From Cristatella mucedo (Eukaryota > Bryozoa > Phylactolaemata > Cristatellidae): a stretch of DNA of 64,000 nucleotides. Position 1 is the stretch's first letter; each line of letters starts with the position of its first letter. A program made the translations under genes and the position numbers. A model generated the notes under the pieces. The model had not been told where the DNA came from and searched no databases. It saw only the letters and a list, made by a program, of their open reading frames with translations. The stretch is taken from positions 168,501-232,500 of the forward strand of contig WPIO01000040.1 in the NCBI GenBank assembly GCA_009760855.2, written 5' to 3'. This document shows positions 1,486 through 63,722 of the stretch, one piece after another.

Positions 1486-33850
<32,365 letters not shown>

Positions 33851-39300: not shown

Positions 39301-39629
39301 TAATCATTAAGTATTGCCGTTATAAATTTTCAAGTATACTTGATCACCTGGTTTGCCAGCCTGTACGTAACTACCTGTGTTGGTGCTTATTTATGTACTT
39401 TGTTTGTAGCTGCCGGCTTGGTCATCCGGTCTTACGTTTCAAGCGACGGAACGATTGAACCGAATGTTAAGGCGTAGTTACAAACAGAAATAGTCATTTA
39501 TTTCAGCGGCTTTGCAGCCCTTTAGTCACAGCCGGAGATGCATCTGCTTCGCTAAGCTTTTCCCCATAGTTGCCTTCGTTCAGCTCGGGAGATAAGGTTT
39601 CCGCCTTTAAAGACCGAGGTCAAGATTGA

Positions 39630-40690
39630 TCCCTCCCAGCCTTTGAGCACCTCAAATTCTCTCAACTCACTTGCAGCATGTATTGATGACATCCGCACAC
39701 GGATGGCAGCAAATTTTCTAAAACTAAACGGTGATAATACTAACTTACTAGTTATGGGCAAACCCAGTGTGATTCACAAATTGGAAAGGCTGACGCTCAA
39801 AATTGGCTCTGCCAGCATATCTCTTGTTGAATCAGCTAGAAATCTAGGTGTCATATTCCAAAGCGACTTCTCTTTAGACGACCTTATCAGCTCCGCAGTC
39901 AAATCTGCTGACTTTCAGGTTCATAACATTGATAAAATTCGGGGTTATTTAGATAAGGATACCACGTCCAAGTTGGTCCATGCATTCGTGACATCCCGTC
40001 TCGACTTCTGCAACTCACTGCTTACTGGCCTACCAGCATGTGCGATCAGGCGATTGCAGCTGGTGCAAAACTCCGTAGCTATGCTTGTCTGTCGTGAGCG
40101 TCGCAGTTGTCCCATTACACCACTTCTCGCCGACCTGCACTGGCTACCAGTCAAGCAACGGATTGACTTCGATGTTTTGTCGCTCACTTTTAGGTCACTT
40201 CATTCTTGGGCTCCAGGCATTCTCCCCGATATACTACCTCATCAGGCCAAGCATCGTACCACCCGCTTTTCGGAATCCAACAGTCTACCAATACCTCGTA
40301 CAAACCTTTAATTCTTTGGAGACCGTGCATTTAGTTCGTATGCTCCCAAAGCCTGGAACTCCTTCCCGCCTTGCGTCAGAACATCCCCTGACTCGACCAC
40401 ATTTAAAAAGAACTTGAAAACACACCTATTTAGGACAGCATTTAGTGGGTCCCTGTGATTCGTCCTTCATGTGCTTATGCGTGCTGGCACTGTGCATGCT
40501 GCCACTAACCACATTTGCATGCTGACCTTGTGCATGTAACCCTAATCATGTTATTCATTTTGTTTGTTTATCAAGCATGATATTACTCACCATTCAATTG
40601 CATTTCCCTTTGCAGAAAATGGAAAGCGCCTAGAGAGAGAGATTGAGTTCTCTGAGGGTGCTTTATCAAATGCATTATTATTATTATTAT
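39630..40690 (+). mobile_element. LINE family A, best preserved 3' third
   Basis: A 222-codon open frame holds ANFLKLNGDNTNLLVMGKPS, SARNLGVIFQSDFSLDDLIS, VTSRLDFCNSLLTGLPACAI and PLLADLHWLPVKQRIDFDVL. A frameshift leads to the remaining C-terminus. The untranslated segment, stem-loop and (ATT)n follow. This is the best local reference for family A. Confidence 0.95.
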
Positions 40691-47297: not shown

Positions 47298-48427
47298 TCT
47301 TGACCTTCAGCGTAGCTGCTATTTTTGTCGGACCCTAGCTCTCGGTGTCCGTCCTCGGCTTATTCGCGTCTGCCTGCAATTTATTAGATTGCTCCTCCGC
47401 CAGCTTGCCACCCTTTCTCTCTTTGTCTAGTGGAGCACAGTAGTCGGTCCACATCCTGACCGCTCTTTGTCTAACCAAGCTCCATTCTAACCTGAGCGGA
47501 TCTCGCTGTCAAACTGACGCCTCGCTCCTCTCCCGGTTAACTAATGTGTCCCCCTACCCAATTCTTCTTAGCTAGTCCGCTACGTACGGGTTGCTCAAGG
47601 GCCCTAGTCAGACCCACTAAGGCAAGGGCTAGTATCGCGGCTAACCTGAGAGCTGCACGAGTGCAATTGTATAACTAGCCGGGACAGCGGGGTTTCAATC
47701 GCCTCAGCGAACTCTGCGTCCCCTGCTCACAGCTCGAGAGCGCAGGTGCTCTTCACCCACTTCTTTTATTCTCACGGAAACCGTCCAGCAACTCTAGGAC
47801 GGCTGGCGGCGACAGCGACCCTGGGCGAGCGTTGCCCTTTTCTTAAATTGCCAGTCGGGACTATAGGGTTGACAGGCCAACCAATATCAATCACCTCACG
47901 ATCCTACTACGATGGCTGCGTCCTCTTGCTCGAGGCTCTAGGACAGAGTCGTTTCCGCCGCGCAGCTCTTATGCGCTCTAAAACTGCGTCAGGCCGGCGC
48001 TGTTGCACTTCGATGTTTGCTGCTTTGAGTTCGCCGCTTTGTGGATTTTATTAAAGTTCGGAAGCAAATAGTTCACGCTTGTGGCACTGCATAGTTCTTG
48101 CCCTTGCCCTCTTCGCAGTAAGCACTTGTATCCTGGTCTTTTGCCTCTCTTACCTCTGTAACTTCCTGCTGGACGCTTCGGCTACCCAGCGGGCTCAGCG
48201 CACCGACGGAGTGGGCGCGGCGGCGCCGCGCGTGCCACCCTCGGTGGGCGGGCTTCTCGTGCGACGTCACGCGCCGATTAGGCTCGGAGACAAAGGAGGG
48301 GGCGGTTTCGCAGCGACCGGCGACTGCGCTTTCAGTTATTGCTAGGTCACGTGATCGCGCGCCCCCCCGTTGTTGTCGTCGTACCCTCACTGCGAGAAAG
48401 GCCCGCGCACGAAGAGATCTGGTGGTA

Positions 48428-48484
48428 ATGTTAAAAAAATTAAGGAAATTGGTGCCTGTTTTCGCTGCAGCCGTTCTAGTACTG
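48428..48484 (+). CDS. GT92 exon 1: start codon and membrane anchor (predicted)
   Basis: There are 19 codons, MLKKLRKLVPVFAAAVLVL, followed at once by donor GTAAGC in phase 0. G at -3 supports the ATG. If unspliced, the frame continues VSALSSS and stops after about 35 further codons. The Lys/Arg-rich tip followed by a hydrophobic segment is the usual start of a Golgi glycosyltransferase. The exon is too short to be sure of by itself. Confidence 0.5.
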
Positions 48485-51400
48485 GTAAGCGCCCTCTCAT
48501 CTTCAAATGGCCAGCACACGGATCCATCGCACTGCCCGTGCCATTATGGCGGCGTCGGCCACCTAGTTCTGACGACGCTGAGCACTTAAGCGACACTCTT
48601 GCTAGCTTCGTGCTCGGCTAAGCTCGCGCGCGTTCCTGATAAATTGTATCAGACCCTTTGGCTGCAAGCGAAATCAAGCGGACTCTTAATAAGCAGCAGC
48701 ATTGGGGGGGGGGGGGGAGCGCGGGCTGCAGTGCGTCAGCTCGGCTTTCGCGATGAATTTCGGCTTCGAATGTTGGTTGGCCACTCGTCCTCTCTGCTGC
48801 TTCGGCGCCGGTGTCGTGCTATCGTGCCTTTGGTTCCAGCGACGGAGCTGCTTGCACTCGACCTATGACCCCTCTCATGCCTAAATACGTTGTGCCTCCT
48901 GCTGCTGCTTTGAGTTCTGCACTGTATATAGGTCGCCACATTTTCCTATCTAGAACGAGCTTAGTCATCTGTCCAGACGAATCGGTAGGACCTTTAAGAC
49001 TTCTCTGGGCTTCTTTGGCTTCAATAACTAGCGAGGGCAGCGCCCTCGACCTCGAACGTGACCCGGCCAATAGAAAGCCAAACCTGGAAGGTGAGCTTGG
49101 AGAACACGTTAGAAAAGGCCTGTGCCAGCTGCTAAAATGGGATGCCCGTATACGCCCGGGATGACGAGTGCTATGGCGTGTACACACTTGAATTTCAAGC
49201 AGTAGTCCTGCAGCAAATAAAGGTCGCAAGCAACCTACTTAGTCGTCCAGCTTGAGGAGTTCTGGGATGCTTTTAGACTAAACTTTGCCAGCCTCAAGAA
49301 AGTCCTTGGCTTTGCTGACAACAGGCCATATCTGTCATGTTCCTATTTGTGCACCACGTGGTACAGCCTGACAGGTGCGATTTGCATGGCTTTTCTTCGT
49401 TTTTCTTGGGCATTAGAGCATCGATCGATCGTCTCATCGGCTGCTATGAAGCATTTTATCTTAGCCTGAAATGGCTCTAAGCCATTTAGGAAGATTCGGA
49501 GTATCATCATGCAAGTGTCACCCGATAGACGCTGACTCGATTTAGTGCTCTCTCTCTCTCTCTCTCTCCCTCCCTCCATCCATCCATCCCTCCCTCCCCT
49601 TTTCCCTCCCTCCCCCTCTCTGTGTCGCTCCTACCTTCCTCTGTCTCTCTCACAATCTAGCTCTCTATATGATCTTTCCTTCTACATAGTTTGTCTATTG
49701 TCTTGTACTCTCTCGTCCTCCCCTGTTCACATCTCTCTATCTATGTAGTAAACGGCTGACCCATCTGCTATGTGCTTTGTATCTGTGACAATTCAGAGAA
49801 CTAGACCGATTAGTGTCGTCTGTTGGGTACCAGCAAGACATGGGTGCAACCCAACCCAGCAAACCAATCATTTGGTAATGCGCTTAGTAAAGTGATTAGA
49901 AAGTGATGGCACACTAGGTAAGGTGGTTGCTTTCACGACCTCGGGACCGAGGTCGTGGGTTCGATTCCTGCAGTAGGCGATTCTTTATCGCCACTGCAAT
50001 CGGTGATGATGGCCGTAAAGGCTCTTCTGTCGCTATACAAAAAGAGGCGTTTAATCAGCTAGGAGTTATGTCTTTAAAGAGATTCAATTCTCTGAGGGTG
50101 ATAAACAAATGCATTATTATTATTATTATTATAAGTTGGCTCTAATAAGGCGACTGCATTGCATAGAGTGGTACAGCCAGCGGTAGATGCATGGGGTATA
50201 CCTTGTACCACTGTTTATTTGCATGCGTGCCAGCCTGCATTGACCTTTTTGGCACTCAAATTCATGCAATGCATGCAATCTCATGCATGCTGTGACGGTA
50301 AAGTGCTGATGGAATCCTGATCACGTGCCCTGATCCCCGCCCAATTGGCCACTCGTGGACACTTTCTTGCTCATCGATGCTTGCATGCACGTGCCTGTGT
50401 TTGCGAGTACAGCAGCAAGTTGGCAGAGGTCACGGCACTTTGGCGAAGTGTTACGGTGCACAGTAGAGAGCAAGCGTCAGCAGGTGCGTGTTTCTTCTTG
50501 GTTTTCTAGGTCCTCGTACGGACAGACATAGTTCGGTTGCTGCGAAGGCAGCTTGACCTATCACTCGGAGCGACAGGGCGCGCACACGACGCTCAGACTG
50601 CAGTGCTCCAGTTGCACCAAAATGCAGAGCAGCAGAGGAAGCAGCAGGAGGAAGGCAACGAGCGAGGACACGTCGAGAGAGTGGAAGTAACAAAGGATGA
50701 GCTAGCGCGAGAAGGTGCCAGCGCAGTAGCAAGCGAGATCTACGAGAGCAGCAGCAGCGATGACCATCACGAAAGACATGCTGCCAAGAAAGGATACTCG
50801 AGAAGCCATCACAGCTCGCGTGGGCTCTCAGGAGGCTTACAGGATCAGCAGGAGCCAGTGGTGTTGGCCCCGAAAACCAAAAATGCAGAGCCAGCCACTA
50901 AATCATCCTCTGTGGTGAGTTCTTTTGAGCTTGGCCACTCTAGAGACTACTCAGACTCTGAGCCAACTGCCGGGCTGCCTGACCGATCACTGTCGGCTAC
51001 CACCGCCGGCAAGGTCGAGGGCAAGGAGCCAACAGGTGAACTCCATAGCAGGGGAGTCGTCGGTAAGCCGCATGCACACAAAGCAGGCGAGCAAATCACG
51101 ACTGTCTCTCGCCCTGCATTTAAAGCTGACCGCCACGAGGCGCCAGGTGTAAGCCTGCAGAGCAACCAAAATGGCAGCAGCATGCCAGCAAGCAGCAGTG
51201 GTCAACCTTCCGTCCTCAAGCCGACCACTGAAAGCCAAAACACTCAGACAAGTCTCTTCGCGGTCACGTGCGAGCTTCGAGCCGGCGACGCTGCTTGGAC
51301 GATCAGCAGCGGTGGCAGCCACAGCTGCCAGGAAGCGATCTCGCTCGACAGTCGTGCTCGCAGCAGCAGCAGCAGCGGCCAGTCCGGCGGCACAGCCGAA

Positions 51401-54400
51401 CCTCAGCACGTGGTCGTCGGTGGTGGTGCATGGCGAAGCGTTGCAGCCGTCTCTCCGACGACCGGCAGCGCTCGTGCCTCTGCCAATTCATCGCCGGCGA
51501 AAAGCAGGGGAAAGCCGAACGGCAGTAACCCAACAAGGGCCGAGCTCTTGAGCTCGAACGGAGCCAGAGGTGTGGCAGGAGGTGTGGCAGCCGCAGCAGA
51601 CCTAGCCAAGTCTGACTTGCCGCTAGTGTCACGTGGCGGCGGCGTCGGCAAGTCACTCTGGAATCACACCGAGACGACTTTCGGATGGTCGAACAGCCGG
51701 GCAGATGAAGACAGAGGCTCCACTGCAGCGGCAGCAGCAGCTTGGCACACTGCTGCTGCCCCCTCCTCATCACCCGAGGTGACTGGCCGCAGAGCTGGCT
51801 TCGAGGCTCCGAGGGAGCCTCGAGCTGGAGGAACAGTACCAGAGGGCGATGCTAGCCAAAGCCTCACGACAGACAGCCCCGAGTTGGTGCTCCAATATGC
51901 AGGCCTTGTCAGCAGCTACGACTCACATTTAAAAATCTCTACTAGCCTAACGGTCGTTGCTTCAACCACCTTGGCTGCCCCAACAGCAGCAGCAAGCAGT
52001 ACAAGGGCAAGGCCAGTTAACTATGTTACCAGTGGCCAGTTAACTATGAACGCCCTGGCTTTCACCAGCAGGTCAGTATAGTTAACTAACGGCTAGCGGC
52101 TGCTGTCCTTGAGCAGCGGCTCCTACTTGGTATATGAATGCAAGCCATTGGTGTTTCGATCGGGCCTGCATGTGCCACGTCCCGAGTTTTTGATTGGTCA
52201 GCTGGTGCCACTAGCAGGCTGAGAGTGAAAGGAACTCTTCTCCTTCTTGCCGGTCAGCTGATTCGGCTTCAGCCCAAGATGTGGTGACGTTGTCGCCCAA
52301 ACCAAGGGATAATCGACACTGATTTAGAAGGAAAGTCGATAGTGTTTGCACAGCTTAAGGATGATAGTCTAGTTCTTCTTCAGGCATGTCTTATGCTTAC
52401 AGGATTTATTGGCTGCTGGTTTTTGCTTCCCGTGCAGCGATTTGCAGCAAAGCAACTGAGTAGTCGTCGAGCTCTTTTAGGGCACTAAAGTACTAAAGAC
52501 TTGCTAATATTGCTATTGTTGCCATCGTTCGAGCTGTCCGTGCTCTTGCCGTTCACATGGCCGAAGCAAGTCGTTCCGGTTCGTCTGCTCCGGCTCGCTG
52601 AGCGACTATTCGTGCCGGACAGCTTATATCACCGCCGATTGTCAAATCGCCTGCTGCAACCTCTCAGGGGCTAGGGGTGCACTCGGCTGCACATCCGGTG
52701 AAGCGAGCTCAAGTAAAAAAAAAAGATCGAACGGTTTGTTTCGCTTGCCACTCTGCTCAGGAGCAAAGCTCTTTTTCCGCCGACCCACAAGGCCTGCCAC
52801 GGCCTGGCTCCGTCATACCTAGCTGAACTGCTGCACCAGTTTCAGCATCTTCCTGACCTCAGGTCCGGTACGGAAAATAAATTAGCCGTGCCGTCCCTCG
52901 GGCTTGAAAGCCGCTGGCGGCAGAAGCTCTTGCTCCGCCTAAGCCTAAGACGTGGAGCCTGCTTCCACAGTTCGTGCGAAACGACACACGTGCTCTCCTG
53001 CTGCCGACTATGGCACATCATTGACATCATTGACATCCGATTGATCGCTGACCATTGATTATTGACAGCCAGGCTGAGCTGCTACTTCCATGCTCCGCAG
53101 CTATCTCAGCTGCTCTCCTGGCTGAGCTCTGCTTCTCACTTTCTCTTTGTTGAGTGTGATGAAGTCTGTTGCCCGTGCTTTCGCGTGCTGACACTGTTGC
53201 ATGCTACCACTAACCACACTGGCATGCTGACCCTGTGCATGTCACCTTCTAACCGCGTTATTCATGTTGCTTATCGAGAATGATGCCATTCACCATTCGA
53301 TCGTGTTTTCTTTGCAGCAAATGTAAAGCACCGAGAAAGAGATTGAGTTCTCTGAGGAGGCTTTATCAAGTCTATTATTATTATTATTATTATTAACCGA
53401 ATGCATACCGAAGGCCGCGTAGACTTTGAATTTGCTTTGCAAAAATCTCCTTCCTAACACCCGCATAGTCTGCTTGGCTTTGTGGAGTTGCAGACTGAGA
53501 TACGTTACATTAGATTCAAGAAGCAGCTGAAGTGCTGAAGACGCCCAATGGCTGCTCAGCCTAACGCTACCTTGCATGCTCCGCTGACGTAGCTGAGCGT
53601 GCTGGCGCATTTTATAGCGCCGCACGTCAGGGATTCTCGCACCATTCGTTCCCTCTTTCTTGCCTGAGCACACGTCCATGACTCGGACGTTCATTGCATA
53701 TGAATGTAGGCCAAAAATTACCTTACGAAATAAGTAATGCCAAGCGATTTTCAGCTTGTCTTTTTTCTAGCAACGAGGCACTGTTTCGCAATTCGTGCTG
53801 ACCATCCTTCGCATTTCCCACCGAAGATTATCGGTGTAGACCGCACCGAGTCGAGCATGCCAAATCTTTCATTCGGATGGATAATGGGTAGGTATGGGTA
53901 ACAGTGAGTTATGGGCTCCTGTCGCAGACTGGATTAAGCCACACGCGGCTGTCAGCGAATGCTCTGGAACAGGTGCCCTCAGGGCCTTGACTTAGCTCGT
54001 GCAGACGCTCTGCCGAGCGGAAGGAGCCGCTCCACCGCTCGGTCGCGGCAGCTCCGGAGCGTGCGCTCCGGAGCACGCACGCAGTTCCGGAGCGAGTCGC
54101 TCGTCACCCTTTTTTCTTTGTAGGCTCTTCTTGATATCGGCTTACAGCGATTTCAGAAAAAACCCGCCCACGGTCAAGATAATCATATATGCGGCTAAGA
54201 GCTTTGACGAGAGAGTGTACTGCGTGCGCCGCGCGGGCGGCGCGGCGGCGGCGGCGGCTCACCAGGCGACTCTCTCGTGGATAAATTACCCGTCCGAGGA
54301 GCTGGCGCTATGGCGAGCGGGCTATCTGCAGTGCCAGCTGCCCGATCTGACGGCGCAGGAGACGAGCGTCGAGCTGCGCCGCGGCGGCGGCGGCGACTCG

Positions 54401-55279
54401 GTCCGCATGCCGCTGGGCAATGCGCCGCCAGCCGCCGCTGCGCCGAGCGCGTTCGGCCTGTGCGTGAAGAGCGGCTACGGAGCGCCGAGCGCTCTGCGCT
54501 TCATCGAGTGGATGGAGCTGCAGTCGCTGCTCGGCGTCGCTCACGTCTTCCTGTACGATCTGGACCTGCGAGGACCGATACGGTCGGCCATGCAGCACTA
54601 CGTCGACAGCGGTCTGCTCACTGTAGTCAAGGACAACAGCAGGCGGCTAATCGAGCAGGCGCAGCCGCGCTTCATCGACCTGTTCGCCGGCTTCGACGCG
54701 ACGCGGGCCACGGGCGACGAGCCGTACTCGCAGCTCGAGCTGCTGTCCATCCAGGACTGCTTTCATCGATTCCGAGGTCTGTTCGAGTACATCGTCGTCG
54801 CCGACATCGACGAGGCCATCGTGCCCGCCGACGGCGGCACGCTGCACGACCTGCTGAGAGCGCTGCGGCGCAGAGCGCCGGCCGCCACGTCCTTCTCGCA
54901 CCAGTCGGCCGCCTACCTGCCGCACTTCGCCGCCGCGAACGCGAGCGGCCGCACGTACATGCTCGCGCACACGCGCCGCACCGAGATCACGTGGGACGGC
55001 TCCAAGGCGTTCCACAGCACGGCCGACACGGAGAGCCTCAACTGGCACCGACGCATCCGTCCCGGTAGTAACGTGGCGTACGTCGAGCCGTCGGAGGCGT
55101 GGCTGCACCACTACCGCGGCTCGTGCAAGGGCTTCTCGTGCGACAGCAATGTCAAGGTCATTGACGACGGCGCGTCCGTCCTGGGCAAACTCGCGACCGC
55201 CCTTACCTCGCGGGTCGCCGCGGTCGCGGAGAAGGTGCGCGGCGACGACAGCCGCCGAGCGGCGGTTGCCGGAGTGTGA
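48428..55279 (+). CDS. Glycosyltransferase family 92 (DUF23) gene, 3-exon model, 924 aa
   Basis: This is a predicted Golgi type II membrane enzyme. GT92 members transfer galactose; worm GALT-1, for example, adds it to core fucose on N-glycans. The model joins 48,428-48,484, 50,510-52,071 and 54,124-55,279. Exon 1 gives MLKKLRKLVPVFAAAVLVL, a basic cytosolic tip plus the start of a membrane anchor. Exon 2 gives a 520-residue Ser/Ala/Gly-rich stem without recognisable domains. Exon 3 gives the catalytic domain. Splice phases agree (0/0 and 2/2), and all four sites are GT-AG with good context (G|GTAAGC, gttttctag, CAG|GTCAGT, tttctttgtag). The catalytic domain alone is certain. Linking exons 1 and 2 to it rests on phase and site quality, not on homology. 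A stem this long is unusual for the family. Intron 1 contains a SINE and a CT-rich tract. Confidence 0.72.
49542..49750. repeat. CT-rich tract, pyrimidine strand on plus
   Basis: Short (CT)n followed by CCATCCATCC and CCCTCCCT units. In intron 1 of the GT92 model. Confidence 0.9.
49900..50130 (+). mobile_element. SINE1 copy ending in a LINE-A-like tail
   Basis: Head GATGGCACACTAGGTAAGGT, B box GGGTTCGATTCC and the SINE1 body. It continues into AAAGAGATTCAATTCTCTGA and ATTATT repeats as in LINE A tails. It lies in intron 1 of the GT92 model. Confidence 0.88.
50510..52071 (+). CDS. Long Ser/Ala-rich exon, probable stem region of the GT92 protein
   Basis: The 1,562 bases are open from a clear acceptor (cttcttggttttctag) to a consensus donor (CAG|GTCAGT), with the in-frame stop only 3 codons later. 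It begins VLVRTDIVRLLRRQLDLSLG, which looks helical, continues with a charged Gln/Glu/Arg stretch (EQQRKQQEEGNERG), then about 400 residues rich in Ser, Ala, Gly and Thr with few aromatic residues. I recognise no domain. Phases 0 and 2 fit the flanking GT92 exons. The alternative is a separate gene of unknown function on the same strand. Confidence 0.62.
52775..53520 (+). mobile_element. LINE family B 3' end, interrupted by a family A piece
   Basis: Family B text (CACAAGGCCTGCCACGGCCT, the Leu/Pro-rich SFSSAG region and on to GATGAAGTCTGTTG) breaks off at about 53,168. It resumes at about 53,397 with CCGAATGCATACCGAAGGCC and runs to the TACATTA tail. The gap holds a family A 3' end. It lies in intron 2 of the GT92 model. 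Confidence 0.88.
53168..53396 (+). mobile_element. LINE family A 3' end nested in LINE B
   Basis: This is the family A untranslated segment (CGTGCTGACACTG, GCATGCTGACCCTGTGCATG), the terminal stem-loop and (ATT)n, about 228 bases. It is bounded on both sides by family B sequence that would otherwise be contiguous. Confidence 0.9.
54124..55279 (+). CDS. GT92 catalytic exon
   Basis: The exon encodes a complete DUF23/GT92 domain (model residues about 541-910). It opens LFLISAYSDFRKNPPTVKII, the usual family start. FIEWMELQSLLGVAHVFLYD matches the family's FLEW-E-LGV-YDL block. LLSIQDCFHRFRGLFEYIVV precedes ADIDEAIVP, whose DIDE (about 767-770) is the family's DXD-type metal-binding motif. Near the end is WLHHYRGSC (His about 868 and 869), which matches the conserved HHYR. 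The stop is TGA at 55,277. The exon is very GC-rich. The acceptor (tttctttgtag) lies just before LFLIS, so open frame upstream of 54,124 is taken as intron. Confidence 0.93.
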
Positions 55280-55710: not shown

Positions 55711-56811
55711 GTAAGCTGCAGCGTGAAGGTCCTCGCTGGGCTGGGTGCCCTGCAACCGGAGAGAATGCTGCTACTTTCGCTACTTGGTTGTTTCCGGATC
55801 AACTTACGGGTCAACAAGATCGGTCGCTGGCGATAGTAGTAATTCACACTCGTAGCTACGATGCCCGGCTTCTTTGGAGACTTTCAAACTGGGCAGCCAT
55901 TGCTCCCCGATCGCTAGCTGTCCTGTCCGCTTGACGTTTGCCATTTAGGAAATGAGGACGCCCGCTCTCGCTGGTGACGTGCTGAACTAACATTTCTCGT
56001 TGTCGAGTTGCGTCGTCTGCAGCTGAGGTCTTTTCGTGTGATATTTATTATTTTTCGCCACCTAAGATACGCTCAGTCATTTCTGCAAGCTCTCCAACAA
56101 GCGCGGCTTCGCTAAGGCCATGAGGCACGACTTTCGGCAGGATCTTACATGCTCTGCTTTAAATCTGTTCTGTACTCGATTGAAATCTTTTTGCATGGAT
56201 CACTTTGCGAGTACGGTACAATGTGCAGCGGGAAAGCTCGATGAAATTATATTTAAGTTTTTAAAGGCACGTACTCACATGCTGCTTTCTTTGAATCTCT
56301 TGAAGTAGCAAAAGAACTTGGCAAAAAAAGATTAAAAGACAGCACGCCACCTGTTGATCTTTGCCACGATTCGCTTTGAGCCGACGACCTGATAAATGAC
56401 CTTTTCGCACTGCCGCCTGCTGATCATCGTTAAGAGCTTTACGTACGTAGCAGTGGACCCGGCTCCAGAGACGGCCCAATTAGAATTCGCCCAATTATCA
56501 AGTACCTCAATTGGATACAAATACTTTCGATATATCACTTCTTCTTCTTGCCAAGGATTCTAGGTGTGACCTAGTAGCAGTGGAGATGCTAGACGATGTC
56601 TTCGTTCGGCACCACCGGCTCTGAACTGTTCAGCTCTGTTAGAAGGCGGTTAGAATATGCTTCGAGGTCCGGCTATGACTGATGCTAGATTATCATCGTA
56701 GCACTTTCAAGGTATTGCCTGTCAGCTCTTGGTTATGGCATTAATTGCAGGAAATTGTAAAGCACCGCGATTAAGATTCAGTTCCCGTAGGGCGCATTGT
56801 AAGTATAATAT

Positions 56812-56950: not shown

Positions 56951-58046
56951 GACATATGCTATTACATTTGATTCTCTTAGGGCAATTTAAAAAAAGCTTA
57001 TATTGTTATTATTACGACTTGCTATATGGTGTTGAAGGGAACAAGATGCCAAGTTAAGATTTAAATAAATAAAATAAGGCTACCTGCACGGTGCGGCCTT
57101 TCAGGGAATCCGGCTATTTCAGCTTTTGTCGCTTGAGCTTCAAGAATGAGATTTCCGCCTAGATTCGCTCTGTTTTCAAAATATTTGTAAGTCATCTAAT
57201 CTTGAAATAGAGCTGGGCATAGTCAAGGGCGATGGTAGGAATAGGCAAAAGTGCCAAGGTCATGACTGACGGGGTTGAGCCGGGGCTCAGCTACGAACGC
57301 TCAGAACGCAGCTCCTTCGCTCAGAACGCCGCCTTTAGCCTCCCATTGCCTAGAAGCCCGATTGAACCCCTCCCCCCGATTGAATTCCCCCGCCCCCGGA
57401 TGGCTACCAGACTTCCTGGAAGGATCGCCGCACAGGCTTGCCGAGCTGGCTTTCCTGTAGGCTCGTCGAAAGTTTCGAGCTCGAAGATTCAGATATATAC
57501 CAATATATACTCAGATGTACTTGCATTCAAATGTACTAACACGCCCTCACACGAGTAGCGCCTTTGAATCATGTCACTTCACTTATAGTGATGACTCGGA
57601 AGCTACAGCTGCACTCTGCAATTCACCAGGAAGTGCCCAACGTCAAGACCTGTGCGGAATTTAGGCGAGCACGTTCCGGCACCTTTCAACATTCTTCTAA
57701 ACAGTGCAGACACTCCATCAGTGGGAATGCAGAGAACGACACACGATACAAGCGACCGAAGTTGTCAATCGTACGACGTTAATAAGCCAGAGGGCGTAAG
57801 CATCGAGCGCCAGCTATGCTGAAGGAAACTTTGGGGGAGCCAGCAACCAGATGGTTGGATTACTCTTTTGTCCCTATACCCAGGTTTAGTGATCGATCTG
57901 CCTATTTGAATCGCTAATGACTTCTGCCAGCGTTTTCTGTGGTTTCGTCCTCGTCAGGCATAGTTCACCATCTTTTCGGGTCACAACGTGTAAGCTCTAA
58001 CCTTTCAGACCAATGATGTTGATAATCGATGGAGGCAACGGAAAGC

Positions 58047-60690: not shown

Positions 60691-61640
60691 GCTATAATTC
60701 ATTCGATTATTCTATTAATCATCATAGGAATGCAGACATGGGTAGAGCTTCTCTGCTTGTTGTGCTCAATTTTTCGGCAGCTTTTGATACTAATGAACAC
60801 CAAGTCCTTCTTGAGTGCCTCTCGTCTCGCCTGAGCATCACTGGCACAGATCTGCAATGGTACAGGTCAAATCTCGGCGGAAGACTCTACGAGTATTCAT
60901 GTAAATGAACATAGATCATCCGAGGTACCTCCGAAATATAGGGTACCTCAGGGCTCCGTGCTAGGTCCGGTTTTTTCACGGTTTATACTCTCCCACAGAG
61001 TCACTTGCCGATGTGATTGCCAAGCACAATCTAAGCTTTCACTCCTATGCGGATAATAATAATACGGTCAGTTGTACTTTTGCTTTGACCCCTCCCAGCC
61101 TTCAAGCACCTCGAATTTTCTCAACTCCCTTGCTGCATGTATTGATGACATCCACATGGAGGGCAGCACATTTTCTTAAATTAAATGATGATAAAACTAA
61201 CTTACTAGCTATTAGCCTGCCAAGTGTGATTAAGAAATTGGAAAGGCTAATGCTAAAAGTTCGCTCTGGCAGCATATCTCCAGTTGAATCTGCCCGAAAT
61301 CTAGGCGTCCTGTTTCAAAGAGACGTTTCTTTAGACAGCCACATCAGCTCCAAAATCAAGTCTGCCTACTTTCAGCTTCATAACATTGCTAAAATTTGGG
61401 CTGGTTTAGATAAGGATACTACATGTAAGTTAGTCCATGCATTTGTGACATCCCGTTTTGACTTCTTTAACTCACTGTTTGCTGGTTTACCGGCATGTGC
61501 AATCAGGCGCTTACAGCAGGTGCAAAACTCTGCACTTGGCTTGTCTGTCGTGAGCGCGGAAATTGTCACACCATACCACTTCTCGCCGACTTGCACTGGC
61601 TCCCGATGGGTAGGCTGGAGCCAAAGAATGAAGGGACCTA
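60690..61640 (+). mobile_element. LINE family A, RT core to thumb, inactive
   Basis: LVVLNFSAAFDTNEHQVLLE and a VPQGSVLGPV block precede a 212-codon open frame with HSYADNNNTVS, so the catalytic YADD reads YADN. AARNLGV-like, ISSKIKSAYFQLHNIAKI and VTSRFDFFNSLFAGLPACAI follow. At about 61,605 the text switches to a minus-strand family A scrap (GGAGCCAAAGAATGAAGGGA). Confidence 0.92.
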
Positions 61641-61742
61641 AAAGTGAATGACAAACGATCTTTTGGATTATCGCTCTCGATGCTCAAATCAAATCTAACC
61701 CAGATCAAAATATGGCGACGAATGTTTTAATATTTTACTGAC

Positions 61743-63384: not shown

Positions 63385-63722
63385 ATGGCGCGAAAGTCAA
63401 AGGTCTTGCTCAGCTGCGCCGTCTGTGCGGCGCTCATCGTGAGTGCGACGCGCGCCGGCGAGCGACTCGCGCCGCGTAACCCGCAGTCGACGGTCGGCCA
63501 GCCGCTGAGGCCACCTCTGCTCGCCCGCTTCGCAGCGCCCGCTTCGCAGCGCCCGCTTCGCAGCGCCCGCTTCGCAGCGCCCGCTTCGCAGCGCCCGCTT
63601 CGCAGCGCCCGCTTCGCAGCGCCCGCTTCGCAGCGCCCGCTTCGCAGCGCCCGCTTCGCAGCGCCCGCTTCGCAGCGCCCGCTTCGCAGCCGCCGGCGCC
63701 TGGCGCAGCGCATCTCCGCCGA

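Follow-up and report, generated by a model that had tools for sequence, protein, structure and literature searches.

The question raised by one locus of the bryozoan Cristatella mucedo is whether three open blocks separated by two long gaps constitute a single gene for a glycosyltransferase of family GT92 and, if so, what is to be made of a stem that would outgrow the catalytic domain, as an earlier reading of the letters alone, the first-pass annotation, had proposed. The locus lies in a stretch of 64,000 nucleotides (contig C343, positions 168501-232500; hereafter the window, whose own numbering is used throughout unless the contig is named), which we compared with the entire genome (572 Mb in 688 contigs). 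The reading at which we arrived, and which we consider probable as a whole, is that of a type II Golgi GT92 enzyme with a long tether-like stem, whose catalytic core would be subject to gene conversion while the stem drifts. The narrower proposal, that the gene encodes a type II Golgi GT92 enzyme, is very probably correct, because the boundary of the catalytic exon recurs in seven of the seven copies examined in the genome, the stem exon in five of the seven, and an anchor-bearing start exon likewise in five. The parts of the gene are the following:

48160..48427, + strand: probable promoter and 5' untranslated region of the GT92 gene, judged from CpG content
48428..48484, + strand: exon 1, with the start codon, the basic tail MLKKLRK and the first part of the membrane anchor; phase-0 exit at the donor CTG/GTAAGC
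48485..50509, + strand: intron 1, bounded by GTAAGC and TTTTCTAG
50510..52071, + strand: exon 2, the stem exon, 520 residues rich in Ser, Ala, Gly and Thr, recognized by its open frame, period 3 and splice-site ranks; ends in TMNALAFTS/R
52072..54123, + strand: intron 2, bounded by GTCAGT and TTTGTAG
54124..55279, + strand: exon 3, the GT92 catalytic exon, 384 residues plus the stop; PF01697, with a conserved SAY start and D227-x-D229 (exon-3 numbering)

When joined, the three exons give one open frame of 924 codons whose sole stop is the terminal one: exon 1 contributes 57 nt, exon 2—entered in phase 0 and left in phase 2—1,562 nt, and exon 3 1,156 nt, the one base missing after exon 2 being supplied by exon 3. 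The coordinates and phases of the first-pass annotation proved correct, and the three-exon gene that they describe is supported by the joined frame, by the ranks of the splice sites, and by the exon layout of the paralogues. Met is absent from residues 1-224 of exon 2 as well as from exon 3 ahead of the conserved SAY motif, so that both exons need another exon upstream. The ratio of observed to expected CpG is 1.34 in 48251-48500 as against 0.86 across the entire window. Exons 1 and 2 together would encode LVPVFAAAVLVLVLV, whose mean hydropathy of 3.13 is the highest of any 15-mer in the whole protein; and this 15-residue hydrophobic segment, flanked by the basic tail, is the predicted N-terminal anchor, in support of a type II topology. 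Intron 1 contains, at about 49780-50135 (by eye), a stretch that resembles a tRNA and closes with an (ATT)n tail, part of which stretch recurs in the loci L020, L021, L022 and L026, while within intron 2 there is a fragment of a reverse-transcriptase frame of the long interspersed nuclear element (LINE) type, at about 52717-53055, which likeness was also recognized by eye.

The splice sites were scored with a generic matrix. On that scale the two acceptors of the gene rank 6th and 2nd among the 4,622 AGs of the + strand of the window, and the two donors 25th and 40th among its 3,245 GTs, which ranks bear out the earlier description of all four sites as good. Between 44001 and 54123 exon 2 is the sole candidate for an internal exon that leaves in phase 2 and whose acceptor and donor each score above 3.5, and exon 1 the sole start-exon candidate with a hydrophobic stretch; between 45000 and 50480 exon 1 is also the only phase-0 ATG-to-donor candidate with a donor score above 5. 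Start exons at that level (donor above 5, hydropathy above 2.5) numbered zero in 88 kb of control sequence, in which five laxer candidates were present; exon 1 of the window's copy could hardly be chance.

For exon 2 we compared the open frame with 1000 first-order and 1000 second-order Markov sequences of the exon's own composition, each read in six frames. An open frame of at least 520 codons occurred in none of either set, the longest being 366 and 414, respectively; and in 50 simulated 64 kb windows the longest open frame was 292 at most. The period-3 power of the exon was 9.7, and 6.5 after the masking of 204 bases of trinucleotide runs, which masked value was reached by two of 240 equally long windows from 1-48000, where exons of another gene also lie. 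Moreover, G peaked at codon position 1 in all eight of the 195-nt blocks of the exon (in one of them tied with position 2), and the T content by codon position, at 0.05-0.26, was mostly below that of the introns (0.22-0.32). Those two regularities also bear on the possibility that a further intron is concealed in exon 2, or that only a portion of the exon is used, in which event the real stem would have about 100-300 residues and the remainder would be a stop-free intron or an exitron. That possibility would agree with the stems of the paralogues, at only 40-133 residues, and with a fair internal donor at 50915 (5.3) followed by weak acceptors at 51126 and 51779; but those internal acceptors score 1.1 at the most, the good donor among the internal sites, being in phase 0, is unfit for exon 3, and the codon-position pattern of G runs through every block, so that we regard a hidden intron as quite unlikely.

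The frame of exon 2 meets a stop (52079-52081) no more than 10 bases past the donor, and an AATAAA is present at 52876, some 800 bp further on, both of which features might suggest that exon 2 is a separate gene ending at its own stop and that exon 3 belongs with some other upstream exon. We consider such an arrangement highly improbable: the stretch of 224 residues without Met at the beginning of exon 2 argues against an independent start; in the approximately 10 kb before exon 3 only exon 2 has sites above 3.5 together with a phase-2 exit; and three of the paralogues (B, C and E, see below) carry an equivalent exon with a related end ahead of their own exon 3.

The catalytic exon was the most readily identified part of the one gene that we prefer to see here. 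The search of exon 3 with the GT92 (DUF23) hidden Markov model, which the first-pass annotation had put forward as a check, returned a match to PF01697 with an expectation value (E) of 1.5e-24 and 87.5 bits, the cut-off being 23, over profile positions 3-217 of 249. At E up to 1 the sole Pfam domain returned for exon 3 was GT92; neither a GalNAc-transferase nor a ricin-type lectin domain was found. Among solved structures, the plant-type galactan synthase 8d3t/8d3z, which we take to be GALS1, is the only credible relative found: exon 3 alone matched 8d3t at E 5.7e-4, and a profile of six copies did so at E 1.5e-6, the weak similarity consisting in two short aligned stretches that include the D-x-D-E region. 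A match in the PDB to the immunoglobulin-like receptor 2otp, weak at E 0.19, was taken as chance and rejected. The six copies aligned were A (that of the window), B, D, E, F and G, with the frame-broken C excluded; in all six of them D227, D229 and E230 of the predicted metal-binding DxD motif, VADIDEAIVP, were invariant, as were the cysteines C33, C70, C113, C212, C334 and C339. Two cysteines with conserved spacing are described for GT92 (PMC2727005). Relatives of exon 3 were found in neither viral contigs, nor prokaryote contigs, nor phage records, and relatives of exon 2 were not found in viral contigs, all of which is as expected because the gene is eukaryotic.

The genome yielded 33 GT92 exon matches, among which we examined the seven loci A to G, along with a further distant frame on contig 453 that has 28% identity to exon 3. 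B and C lie downstream of A on its own contig; contig 666 carries D and E, and contig 669 F and G. The catalytic exons of B, D, E, F and G have 40-77% protein identity to that of the window copy, and for C the figure is 89-97% along most of the exon and 69% at the start. In each of the seven copies an AG stands exactly one base ahead of the conserved motif (LFLISAY and variants), giving phase-2 entry, with acceptor scores that span from 10.3 in A to 1.6 in G and -0.5 in D. Stem exons were sought upstream by splice score and phase only (at least 90 nt, phase 0 in and phase 2 out), and the top-ranked candidate was accepted in five of the seven: 1,562 nt in A, 401 nt in B, 383 nt in C, 122 nt in E and 215 nt in F. 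Where found, the exon layout in B to G is the same as in A, but the stems comprise 133 residues in B, 127 in C, 40 in E and 71 in F (weak), as compared to 520. These exons end in TMNALAFTS (A), EMNVTVFND (B), AMNTLAFSD (C), TLDVTLFDD (E) and PLSLVVYYE (F). The score of A with C at this 3' end was reached by two of 20000 shuffles (by none of 5000 in a second run), and out of 5000 shuffles the score was reached by 14 for A-B, 81 for A-E, 58 for C-E, and none for B-C and B-E; the pairs of F with B, C and E gave 127, 553 and 225. From such comparisons A, B, C and E are judged to share a homologous stem exon, that of F being doubtful.

Start exons encoding an anchor and leaving in phase 0 were found in A (57 nt), E (54 nt), F (57 nt), G (96 nt) and also B. 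The first exon of B lies within the window and the two others further along the contig:

63385..63438, + strand: probable exon 1 of the tandem paralogue B, 54 nt, MARKSKVLLSCAVCAALI, phase-0 exit at ATC/GTGAGT, in CpG-rich surroundings
C343:242047-242447: exon 2 of paralogue B, whose exon 3 runs from 243995 of the contig

A perfect 14-bp tandem array of 12.1 copies occupies 63522-63690, just past that probable start exon. Taken together, the paralogues support all three exons of the model, in a manner independent of the earlier reasoning.

Several observations weigh against this reading of the locus. The 3' ends of the stem exons of A and F are not significantly alike (1011 of 5000 shuffles), and the exon of F (score 6.0) was retained only as doubtful. 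Beyond the 3' end the stem of A fails to align with that of C, their local score being reached by 286 of 500 shuffles, nor are their 5' ends significantly alike (2061 of 20000 shuffles); and because that local alignment is no better than those of shuffled sequences, the case for homologous stem exons is based on position, phases and 3' end only. The candidates for D (110 nt, score 5.4) and G (98 nt, 2.3) were rejected on account of weak sites and of ends that, by eye, are unlike the others. As to the start exons, that of B has a weak donor (1.4), under the thresholds of the scan, and was found from the list of open reading frames; those of E, F and G (donors 3.2, 4.7 and 5.8) could individually be chance, in view of the five lax candidates in the control sequence; and none was accepted for C and D. 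The candidates not accepted were one for B that leaves in phase 2, one for C about 14 kb upstream of the C stem exon with a donor of 3.0, and one for D with a hydropathy of 1.71. Finally, neither AATAAA nor ATTAAA was found within 1 kb past the stop of the window's gene, the first ones being at 56331 and 57064.

That the stem exon, at 520 residues, is longer than the catalytic exon, at 384, was borne out, and the distance between anchor and catalytic domain exceeds the 400 residues that we took as the mark of a long stem. Since the exon is about 4-13 times longer than the accepted stem exons of the paralogues, the stem as predicted stands out as exceptional in this family. Residues 31-540 of the protein comprise 15.3% Ser, 13.5% Ala, 9.6% Gly and 7.6% Thr (Ser plus Thr, 23%), with a net charge of 0 and only 17 aromatic residues and 2 Cys among the 510, and the stem contains four N-glycosylation sequons. 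Exon 2 had no other match in the genome at E up to 0.01, in a search that scores the best candidates only, and no Pfam family above the cut-off, a weak CENP-R match (E 0.035) falling below it and being rejected; the exon is therefore taken to contain no recognizable repeat or domain. With respect to the disorder previously attributed to the stem, the part of the claim that stands is the one based on composition, from which—the stem being rich in Ser, Ala, Gly and Thr—disorder is plausible and indeed likely. The Uversky charge-hydropathy relation is marginal and places the stem just on the ordered side (0.432 versus a boundary of 0.413). AlphaFold, when run without an alignment, gave the stem a mean predicted local distance difference test (pLDDT) score of 42.6, with values below 50 at 439 of the 520 residues; the same mode, however, assigned a mean of 35 to the catalytic exon alone, though that exon is expected to fold, so that the low values of the stem are no evidence of disorder. 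The stem model also has a helix with high pLDDT adjoining the membrane, at residues 5-52 of exon 2, which may represent a helical neck or may arise as an artefact of prediction from a single sequence.

The protein of the window has the GT92 domain in common with GALT-1, SRF-2 and BAH-1 of C. elegans and with the planarian homologues of GALT-1. According to the published accounts, those planarian homologues are type II and carry a DxD motif (PMC5936828), and BAH-1 has a predicted signal peptide (PMC2727005). SRF-2 totals 515 residues (PMC10151413) and BAH-1 461 (PMC2727005), whereas the protein of the window has 924, of which 520 are in the stem exon. In the titles and abstract openings surveyed no GT92 enzyme with a stem this long was met, which result does not establish its absence from print. 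To present the stem as a new architecture was nevertheless too strong, since that of GALNT5 has 470 residues (PMC12838155). GALNT5, a type II Golgi enzyme with a long stem between anchor and catalytic domain, is like the protein of the window in layout only: it belongs to another transferase family and possesses a C-terminal lectin domain, whereas the latter is a GT92 protein in which a lectin domain was not found. Because long stems are known in another transferase family, we view the gene as an unusual variant and not as a new kind of system.

Elsewhere in the window, exon frames of BLTP1 (bridge-like lipid transfer protein) appear in order on the - strand at 8277-33934. Of ten frames submitted to Pfam, six match PF20413; the matches span from profile positions 11-82 (at 33.5-33.9 kb) to 1065-1118 (at 8.3-9.8 kb), each below the whole-protein cut-off; the BLTP1-like frame at 8277-9845 has 523 codons, mostly of low complexity by eye. 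Also on the - strand, 57840-57982 corresponds to positions 813-954 of 3401 of the eukaryotic large-subunit rRNA (E 2.7e-21), perhaps as a piece of a pseudogene. Pieces of LINE-type reverse-transcriptase frames were recognized by eye at 13268-14011, 39556-40308, 52717-53055 and 60965-61648, of which four two were run against Pfam and gave no match; and (CT)n and (AG)n arrays are numerous across the window.

Between the tandem copies, DNA similarity is limited to exon 3 plus, in A-C, 128 bp of intron, apart from what appear to be dispersed repeats; those last 128 bp of intron 2 align to copy C with a single 1-base gap as the one difference. A and C are 95-100% identical per 60-base block over a tract that starts some 100 bases ahead of exon 3 and extends to about base 1097 of the exon, and 57% thereafter. 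A and B are 53-93% identical at bases -42 to 617, 97-100% at 618-1037, which portion holds the DxD motif, and 82% and less beyond. D and E share 94% over exon 3, and upstream of it only repeat-like pieces. The identity of the catalytic core (54124-55279) with the loci L010, L022 and L023 is mosaic, on account of which we set aside a ratio of nonsynonymous to synonymous substitution rates (dN/dS) of 0.56 for A versus B. We read the identity tracts as probable gene conversion of the catalytic core, the alternative being recent partial duplication.

In copy C a 7-nt deletion breaks the frame of exon 3, which circumstance introduces the possibility that the copy in the window is decaying as well, its long stem being neutral low-complexity growth and its protein not made or not needed. 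Consistent with such decay are the Ala/Gly runs that lie within the catalytic exon of the window copy and not that of B, along with the long Ser/Ala/Gly stretches of the BLTP1-like frame, as if the genome tended to such growth; but in the window copy the 924 codons still form one unbroken frame, the splice sites are good and the beginning of the gene is CpG-rich and promoter-like, and 520 codons would not stay open by chance. All in all, we deem decay unlikely. Judged from those same runs and that same frame, low-complexity growth may nevertheless be common in this genome, and for that reason the long stem weighs less as an adaptation.

If, then, the gene is spliced in vivo as modelled and its product is a type II Golgi GT92 enzyme, the protein would begin with a short basic tail, followed by an anchor of some 15 residues, encoded partly in exon 1 and partly in exon 2, then by about 510 residues of stem and by the catalytic domain, with the stem possibly consisting in a helical neck of about 50 residues and then a long low-complexity tether rich in Ser, Ala, Gly and Thr. 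The catalytic domain would bear the DxD motif for metal and the uridine-diphosphate (UDP) sugar, and the transfer of a galactosyl residue is the best guess by analogy with the known GT92 enzymes, in which galactose is added to core fucose by GALT-1, to galactose on N-glycans by the avian homologue, and to galactan by GALS1 (PMC5936828). The enzyme in the window would most likely move galactose from UDP-galactose to fucose or galactose on a glycan. By analogy with GALNT5, the stem is possibly an O-glycosylated, flexible tether, and its most likely role would be to give the catalytic domain access to acceptors at a great distance from the membrane.

With respect to the family, gene conversion would keep the catalytic exon alike while the stem exon of each copy drifts freely in length and sequence, the stems having 127, 133 and 520 residues within the cluster and as few as 40 in a more distant pair. 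We propose only tentatively, and as a rather unlikely prospect, that a tandem family with a core made uniform by gene conversion and a diversifying stem exon varies the reach or the Golgi address of its enzymes and not their specificity, its copies carrying out much the same chemistry on tethers that differ widely in length. The locus illustrates how paralogues can serve to test, without recourse to RNA, a gene of three exons that was read from raw sequence. The stems of Golgi enzymes are often regarded as passive spacers; near-identical cores with stems that differ several-fold in length in one genome would constitute a natural experiment on stem length.

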